NCBI GenBank assembly: GCA_030949385.1
Contig: JAUZSP010000010.1
Location: 1-64,000, forward strand
Direction of reading: 5' to 3'
Origin: Gammaproteobacteria bacterium
GTDB taxonomy: Bacteria > Pseudomonadota > Gammaproteobacteria > JAUZRS01
Length of the DNA: 64,000 nucleotides
Part shown: in pieces, positions 2,036 through 3,579 of the stretch
Layout of the letters: each line of letters opens with the position of its first letter
Position numbering within the stretch: the stretch's first letter is position 1
Notes under the pieces: generated by a model
The model's input: only the letters and a program-made list of their open reading frames with translations
What the model was told of the DNA's origin: nothing
Database searches by the model: none
Made by a program: the position numbers and the translations under genes

Positions 2036-2320
2036 ATGAAGCTTTTGGGTCGGGATAAACTACAAAAGTTTGGTAACAAGCATGATCGCGCCAAAAGTGC
2101 TTTGGATGCTTGGTTCAATGAGGTGGAAAATTCCGACTGGAAAACACCTCAAGAGATCAAAAATCGTTACAACAGCGCCGATTTTCTCTCAGGTAATCGG
2201 GTGATCTTTAACATCAAAGGCAATCATTATCGTTTGGTGGTAAAGGTGCGCTATAAAAATGGCATTGTGGTAATCCAATGGGTTGGCACACATGCGGAGT
2301 ACGATAAACAGAGTTTTTAA
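2036..2320 (+). CDS. higB: HigB-family mRNA interferase toxin
   Basis: A 94-residue basic protein of the HigB toxin family (RelE fold). Diagnostic features are a run of basic residues in the first half, the NGNHYRLV-type strand (here KGNHYRLVVKV), and the C-terminal WVGTHAEYDK signature. HigB toxins cleave mRNA on the ribosome. The toxin precedes its antitoxin, the usual reversed order for hig loci. A palindromic operator lies just upstream, and the antitoxin gene starts 12 bases downstream. Confidence 0.9.
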   Translation: MKLLGRDKLQKFGNKHDRAKSALDAWFNEVENSDWKTPQEIKNRYNSADFLSGNRVIFNIKGNHYRLVVKVRYKNGIVVIQWVGTHAEYDKQSF

Positions 2321-2332
2321 AGGGGAAATGTG

Positions 2333-3535
2333 ATGAATCACATCAAACTCATTTGCTCCGATGAGGAGCACGAAAAAGCGATGGATCGCTTGATGGATCA
2401 GATGGATCTGGAGCCAAAAGAGGGCAGCCGTGAAGCCGATGATTTGGAGCTGTTGGCTTTCTTGATTGAAGCGTACGAAAAAGAGCATTTTCCAATGGAT
2501 CTACCCGATCCCATTGCTGCGATTCAGTTTCGCATGGAACAGCAGGGCTTGCGTAAAAAAGACCTGATCCCCTACTTAGGATCAGCATCGAAAGTGACCG
2601 AAGTATTGAACGGTACTCGTGGACTGAGCACCCAGATGATTCGCCGTCTTAGCGAAGGTCTCTGTATTTCGGCACAGGTCTTGATTCAAGCCCCAAAGCC
2701 GGTTAATAGCCATGCTCCAAAATTGGAGGGTGAACAGTTTCCATTGGCTGAGATGCACAAACGAGGCTACTTTAAAGCGTTTAAGGGCTCCTTGAGTGAG
2801 CTAAAAGCCAACGCCAGCGAGCAGATGCGCTGCTTTTTGCAGTCAGTGCAGGGCGGATTAGAGTTGCAACCAGCACTGCTGCGAAGCAGTGCGCAACGCA
2901 GTGGCAGCCATCGAGAGGTGGATTCGATGGCCGTTTGGGCGTGGCAGGTGAAGGTCTTACAACAGGCGGAAGCGGAGTCGTTGCCAGAGTATCGTGAAGG
3001 CTGTGTGACCCCTGAATGGATGCAGACCTTGGCGCAACTGTCGTGGTCAGAGCAGGGGCCAAAATTGGCCAAGGAGTATCTGAACCGTTATGGCATTCAT
3101 CTGATTTTTGAGCAACATCTGCCTAAAACTTATCTGGATGGAGCAGCGCATCGGCACACAGGCTGCAATCCCGTGATTGCATTGACCTTGCGCTACGACC
3201 GAGTGGATCATTTTTGGTTTAGCTTGCTGCATGAGTTGGCGCATCTGGCGCTGCATTTGACTGAAGAGCAGTCGTGGTTTGTGGATGATCTGTACAGCGG
3301 AGAGCAAACGGATCAGCGAGAGCAGGAGGCCGATGCGTTGGCGCAACGGATCTTGTTGCCTATTGAAGAGGCTGAGTTGTTGGCCGTGAGTGAGGTTGAT
3401 GAGGTGAAGGCTTTGGCGCAAAAGCTCAATGTTTCGGCCTGCATTGTGGCGGGTCGGTTGCGTCATGAGCGTGATAACCATCGTTTGTTTGGTAAACGTT
3501 TTCGGGATCGTCTGCCTGAGTGGGTTAAAACGTAA
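2333..3535 (+). CDS. higA: HigA antitoxin fused to ImmA/IrrE-type zinc peptidase
   Basis: A 400-residue protein with two recognisable parts. Residues 1 to about 120 are a complete HigA antitoxin: an acidic N-terminal helical region, then an XRE-type helix-turn-helix (around FRMEQQGLRKKDLIPYLG and KVTEVLNGTRGLS). Residues about 240-385 resemble the ImmA/IrrE (COG2856) metallopeptidase domain, with the zinc-binding HELAH motif at 300-304 and a downstream EQEADALAQRILLP segment typical of that family. Most HigA proteins are only 100-140 residues, so this is a long fusion. The start at ATG 2333 follows AGGGGAA. An ImmA-like domain suggests regulated proteolysis of a repressor, possibly its own (inference). 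Confidence 0.82.
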   Translation: MNHIKLICSDEEHEKAMDRLMDQMDLEPKEGSREADDLELLAFLIEAYEKEHFPMDLPDPIAAIQFRMEQQGLRKKDLIPYLGSASKVTEVLNGTRGLSTQMIRRLSEGLCISAQVLIQAPKPVNSHAPKLEGEQFPLAEMHKRGYFKAFKGSLSELKANASEQMRCFLQSVQGGLELQPALLRSSAQRSGSHREVDSMAVWAWQVKVLQQAEAESLPEYREGCVTPEWMQTLAQLSWSEQGPKLAKEYLNRYGIHLIFEQHLPKTYLDGAAHRHTGCNPVIALTLRYDRVDHFWFSLLHELAHLALHLTEEQSWFVDDLYSGEQTDQREQEADALAQRILLPIEEAELLAVSEVDEVKALAQKLNVSACIVAGRLRHERDNHRLFGKRFRDRLPEWVKT

Positions 3536-3543
3536 GGCTGTGT

Positions 3544-3579
3544 CAGGTGCAATGCCCTTTGGTTATTGACACCCTACGG
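3544..3579. repeat. Short palindromic repeat, family A (copy 4)
   Basis: Fourth copy of the GGTGCAAT...ATTG(A)CACC element, just after the higA stop and before the rpsP promoter. It marks the boundary between the toxin-antitoxin island and conserved core genes. The rest of 3536-3684 contains no gene that I can see. Confidence 0.72.

Follow-up and report, generated by a model that had tools for sequence, protein, structure and literature searches.

The closest system with experimental data to the locus described here is PD-lambda-2, which emerged from a functional selection (Vassallo et al. 2022; PMC9519451). PD-lambda-2 is a phage defense system that consists of a HigB-like protein, a fusion of a HigA-like domain with a peptidase, and a beta protein. 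This third component is related to a P4 antitoxin and is needed for defense against lambda vir (PMC9519451). Unexpectedly, the second component is toxic alone, and the HigB-like first component rescues (PMC9519451). Makarova et al. (2009; PMC2701414) had already described Xre–COG2856 fusions beside RelE or PIN toxins. In their prediction, the protease acts as a trigger by cleaving the Xre antitoxin or a repressor, with a wider cascade also allowed for. Cleavage of an HTH repressor by an M78 protease, with ssDNA as the signal, is known from PprI–DdrO (PMC10904395) and from CapP–CapH (cited in PMC13373217), and M78 antitoxins are found in RosmerTA (PMC10440598).

Here, we analyze a gammaproteobacterial locus that is, as predicted from its sequence, a two-gene toxin–antitoxin operon with a zinc peptidase built into the antitoxin.

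Gene order and genomic context

The two genes lie side by side on the + strand of the window (the whole stretch of 64,000 nucleotides that was analyzed), flanked by a VapC gene and rpsP. The locus comprises the following features.

1980–2028, + strand: higB operator/promoter region, with the half-site TTCCC at 1982–1986 and the palindrome TTCCCTTTAAGGGAA at 2009–2023
2036–2320, + strand: higB, encoding a RelE-like HigB_toxin protein of 94 amino acids (PF09907; PADLOC PD-Lambda-2_A) with Arg-66, Thr-85, His-86, and Tyr-89 (R66/T85/H86/Y89) intact
2333–3535, + strand: higA–M78 fusion gene, 400 amino acids (PADLOC PD-Lambda-2_B; AlphaFold2 model)
2333–2686, + strand: HigA part, residues 1–118 (profile match to 5ycl and 5ifg; fold matches 6kmq and 6kml)
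2687–2734, + strand: flexible linker, residues 119–134 (lowest alignment information; low pLDDT)
3083–3472, + strand: ImmA/IrrE Peptidase_M78 domain, about residues 251–380 (Pfam; H300, E301, H304, and E330)

The stop of higB at 2320 and the ATG of the fusion gene at 2333 are 12 nt apart, and rpsP starts 248 nt downstream of the fusion gene. A congener carries the same gene pair at the same site beside rpsP with 90% identity. The dN/dS values against this congener (fusion, ∼0.11; HigB, 0.14; M78 part, ∼0.09) indicate that the locus is under purifying selection. Together with the dN/dS of the fusion, its 90% identical counterpart in the same frame rules out a sequencing error as the origin of the fusion, and the objection that a frame error had joined two genes fails. 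Genome-wide searches, which covered 2.87 Mb, found neither a second HigB nor a second M78 protein elsewhere in the genome.

Several other elements are found at the start of the window. A gene for a VapC-like PIN toxin (1511–1903, − strand) is divergent from higB and has no obvious VapB antitoxin gene adjoining it. A gene pair for an HI0074/HepT-like protein and an MNT nucleotidyltransferase, resembling type VII TA systems, lies at 119–863; on the congener contig, this pair is preceded by one more nucleotidyltransferase-like ORF, which itself has a partner ORF upstream. An intergenic stretch of ∼170 nt is duplicated at 865–1036 and 1352–1523, 487 nt apart, with 97–98% identity in the two longest blocks, and an 83-amino acid ORF between the copies (1048–1299) has no Pfam or NCBIfam match. 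Finally, a 23-nt repeat that is part of a potential hairpin (GGTGCAATGCCCTTYGGTTATTG) occurs in five copies in the genome.

4–26, 997–1019, 1484–1506, and 3546–3568: copies of the 23-nt repeat in the window
G000 C1:133744–133766: fifth copy of the 23-nt repeat

Four of the five copies separate the TA-like modules at the window start, the remaining one is close to a HepT/MNT pair (L179), and the congener locus (L040) shows the same arrangement of repeats.

Domain structure of the HigA–peptidase fusion

The reading frame of the fusion is open to 3535 from either GTG 2330 (401 amino acids) or ATG 2333 (400 amino acids), and the ATG is preceded by an AGGGGA ribosome-binding sequence 6 nt upstream. 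The residue numbers H300, E301, and H304 given in a preliminary description of this DNA are exact on the 400-amino acid product. The fusion aligns over nearly its full length with the PADLOC PD-Lambda-2_B model (E 1.7e-143), and its AlphaFold2 model has a pLDDT of 88.

The first 120 residues had been described as HigA. Indeed, a profile of 78 homologues matches residues 4–115 to the solved HigA chains 5ycl and 5ifg (E 4e-14), and the fold matches to 6kmq and 6kml have a probability of 1.00. An XRE helix-turn-helix lies at about residues 57–118; a Pfam search of the HigA half reported no HTH domain. By analogy with E. coli HigA, the N-terminal helices of the HigA part probably form the toxin-binding region. 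As in HigBA systems, the antitoxin lies directly downstream of HigB.

The linker that follows has the lowest information of the alignment (1.32 bits versus 3.22 bits for the HTH), and the pLDDT drops below 50 at residues 123–127. The alignment of homologues contains no conserved cleavage sequence in the linker, and because of this poor conservation we do not place a cleavage site there.

The description of the C-terminal half as a peptidase of the ImmA/IrrE type is supported, and its catalytic site is intact. The Peptidase_M78 model of Pfam, which was used here to represent COG2856, matches residues 253–377 (GTG numbering) with E = 2e-12 and 47.4 bits against a cut-off of 22 bits. The domain has the HExxH...E zinc site, in which the zinc ligands H300, H304, and E330 and the catalytic E301 are invariant in 78 of 78 homologues. 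Its fold matches to Deinococcus PprI/IrrE and CapP have a probability of 1.00. For these and for E. coli HigA, together the best fold matches of the model, the Foldseek E-values are only 0.0025–0.02 because each match spans a single domain. The M78 half also matches RmrA, CapP, and IrrE.

HigB

The toxin candidate contains the HigB_toxin domain (PF09907, E = 7.8e-32) together with the conserved residues of the family and matches the PADLOC PD-Lambda-2_A model (E 1.5e-47); matches to the solved HigB of E. coli/Shigella are weak. With this domain and the tetrad R66/T85/H86/Y89, it is an ordinary HigB, as had been assumed. The tetrad is probably catalytic, to judge from its conservation and the analogy with RelE. 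We found no description of the catalytic residues of a PF09907 HigB in the openly accessible literature; the residues described for V. cholerae HigB2 belong to a HigB2 of the RelE superfamily.

A conserved operator upstream of higB

The palindrome TTCCCTTTAAGGGAA is exact (7+1+7) and is a perfect copy of TTCCCn5GGGAA. It is embedded in a 22-nt repeat that occurs twice, 27 nt apart, and the upstream copy has the half-site only. Upstream of higB, TTCCCn5GGGAA is perfect in 56 of 104 loci and present with at most one mismatch in 84 and at most two in 96, whereas dinucleotide shuffling gives expectations of 0.0 perfect sites and 0.8 sites with at most one mismatch. By these counts, the motif is a genuine conserved operator, in line with the preliminary description of the palindrome as an operator. 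Several ordinary unfused HigBA loci carry this site or a similar one; autoregulation is therefore probably an inherited trait, and the HigA half probably keeps its ancestral repressor role.

The A/T-centered form of the operator occurs once in the 2.87-Mb genome, at the higB locus; a reversed control pattern also occurs once, so that this uniqueness points to a local role but is not a significance test. We also considered a wider regulon that the peptidase would regulate through this operator and rejected it, since the strict form is confined to the higB locus. Because the genome holds a single M78 protein, a single HigB, and a single strict operator, the system probably acts as a local circuit.

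Distribution

The arrangement of HigB and a HigA–peptidase fusion is widespread, has already been described, and is named in databases. Among 84,980 species genomes scanned, there were at least 569 confirmed relatives, the best 80 of which belong to Proteobacteria, Verrucomicrobia, Cyanobacteria, Chloroflexi, Spirochaetes, and others. Within the class, 8 of the 369 genomes sampled, the source genome included, have a match to nearly the whole model. HigB adjoins nearly all full-length fusions on the upstream side, so the survey recovered the same fusion beside HigB, and HigA and peptidase as separate genes were not seen in the collected locus set. We collected 108 distinct loci (fusion >250 bits) with HigB directly upstream: 81 have room for a third gene and lack it, 11 carry one, and 16 break off before this can be judged. 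The sequence data show the domain architecture, the intact active sites, the operator, and the structure of the operon, as well as purifying selection and wide conservation.

Relationship to PD-lambda-2

The window contains the adjacent A (HigB-like) and B (HigA–peptidase) components of PD-lambda-2. The third gene of that system encodes a PF14350 beta protein, and neither PDLC03983 nor PF14350 has a match in the operon or anywhere in the genome, which also excludes a third gene hidden elsewhere in the genome. A tree of 116 fusions places the loci that combine a third gene with a degenerate HigB in a single clade (SH-aLRT 99). The window fusion lies outside this clade of C-bearing B proteins, in another supported clade (starred) of 10 two-gene loci.

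The two groups also differ in HigB. The tetrad R66/T85/H86/Y89 is kept in 93 of the 97 HigBs without a third gene, and a 94th differs only at T85; it is missing, wholly or nearly, in 10 of the 11 HigBs with a third gene, including those of four E. coli loci. Exceptions exist on both sides: L003 (1193–3799) has a third gene yet an intact HigB, and L118, L173, and L174 lack the third gene yet have altered HigB residues. The contrast is strong by number (10 of 11 versus 4 of 97 altered) but comes essentially from one clade, with only 2 pairs in an independent-pairs test. As it goes back to what is essentially a single evolutionary event, apart from a few exceptions, the contrast is suggestive but no statistical proof. 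We found no description of this tetrad contrast between two-gene and three-gene loci in the papers searched.

The laboratory strain E. coli C (L161, NZ_CP029371.1) carries a three-gene locus of the PD-lambda-2 type beside a SIR2 gene. With a viral PD-lambda-2-like locus as the query, megablast gave no hit in E. coli, and a distant-mode search found 8 genomes.

The main rival to a classical toxin–antitoxin pair is the polarity of PD-lambda-2, in which the HigA–peptidase fusion would be the toxic effector and the HigB-like protein would neutralize it, here without a third component. A direct experiment on a homologous pair, in which B was toxic and A rescued (PMC9519451), and the full-length matches of both window proteins to their respective PADLOC models (A and B) speak for this polarity. 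However, the A proteins of the third-gene clade, those of the four E. coli loci included, have lost the tetrad that the window protein keeps, the window pair belongs to a different clade, and the third gene that defense requires is absent from the genome. We regard the reversed polarity as unlikely for the window pair. In PD-lambda-2, loss of the HigB tetrad may account for the toxicity of the fusion and the neutralizing role of the HigB-like protein, and the intact tetrad suggests the ordinary toxin/antitoxin polarity in the window pair.

These observations allow a tentative evolutionary scheme, which is possible but far from secure. The two-gene modules would be ancestral and self-triggered, with an active HigB that is freed by the attached protease. 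PD-lambda-2 would be derived, its HigB-like protein having lost the nuclease residues around the time at which the beta-protein gene was gained, with a reversal of roles.

A proposed built-in protease switch

The most likely reading of the locus is a classical toxin–antitoxin pair with a built-in protease switch. HigB would be a RelE-like mRNA endonuclease that is bound and silenced by the HigA half, which would also repress the operon by binding to TTCCCn5GGGAA. The ImmA/IrrE peptidase would be the on-board sensor and actuator. Upon a stress signal (single-stranded DNA or DNA damage in the case of IrrE/PprI and CapP), it would inactivate the antitoxin/repressor, probably by cleaving the HigA of its own or of a neighboring subunit. 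The operon would then be derepressed, and the freed HigB would arrest translation, plausibly in an abortive response to phage. In this scheme, we infer binding, neutralization, cleavage, signal, and phage role. A protease trigger that replaces Lon/Clp, in cis or in trans, is plausible; as such a trigger was predicted in 2009, the mechanism of the preliminary description is an already published prediction.

The HigB tetrad, kept here as in most loci without the beta-protein gene, the invariant zinc site of the M78 domain, the upstream position of HigB, the conserved operator, and the low dN/dS of the fusion argue for the protease switch. The toxic fusion and rescuing HigB-like protein of PD-lambda-2 and the linker without a conserved sequence argue against it. 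Taken as a whole, with the protease trigger included, the assignment as a type II toxin–antitoxin operon has about an even chance of being correct.

Another rather improbable reading is an ordinary addiction or stress module of the HigBA type. Its M78 domain would only shorten the life of the antitoxin or have a ligand-sensing or structural role, with no regulated cleavage. The HigA half, operator, and gene order are as in unfused HigBA, and the mycobacterial transcriptional regulator 6cyj is a fold match over the M78 domain. Yet the HExxH and E330 ligands are fully conserved and the domain is under purifying selection, which argues that catalysis is used. Still more doubtful is a peptidase whose real target is a protein other than HigA (a phage protein or a different XRE repressor), with HigB as a downstream effector or merely co-regulated; ImmA and CapP do cleave separate repressors in trans, and the wider cascade of Makarova et al. 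(PMC2701414) would accommodate it, but the strict operator occurs once in the genome and HigA is physically joined to the protease.

The tetrad contrast makes the puzzling result for PD-lambda-2, a toxic HigA–peptidase and a neutralizing HigB-like protein, testable, as four residues kept by ∼96% of two-gene HigBs are missing from the HigBs of PD-lambda-2. We know of no member of the two-gene branch with an experimental test. If the two-gene form is indeed a classical toxin with a protease trigger, it would provide a TA module in which the activation switch is defined and built in; to our knowledge, the activation step is unknown for most type II systems.

Comparison with known systems

The locus shares with the canonical HigBA of E. 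coli/Shigella (YgjN–YgjM; 5ycl, 5ifg, and 6kmq) the toxin-first operon, the HigB fold family, and HigA residues 4–115, whereas the canonical HigA ends at ∼138 amino acids and has no peptidase. RosmerTA (RmrA), CapH–CapP, ImmR–ImmA, and DdrO–IrrE likewise combine an HTH with an M78 peptidase, fused or in neighboring genes, and are used in phage defense or the DNA-damage response; they differ in the HTH part, and their partner toxin is not HigB or there is no toxin. The Xre–COG2856 fusions of Makarova et al. have the same architecture and the same predicted mechanism, although that study counts partners at the level of the RelE family, without naming HigB. In common with PD-lambda-2, the locus has a HigB-family gene directly upstream of a HigA–HTH/ImmA–IrrE peptidase fusion, nearly full-length matches of both proteins to the PADLOC A and B models, and the same operator type. 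It differs from PD-lambda-2 in consisting of two genes without the third, in the intact HigB tetrad, and in its position on a separate branch of the tree.
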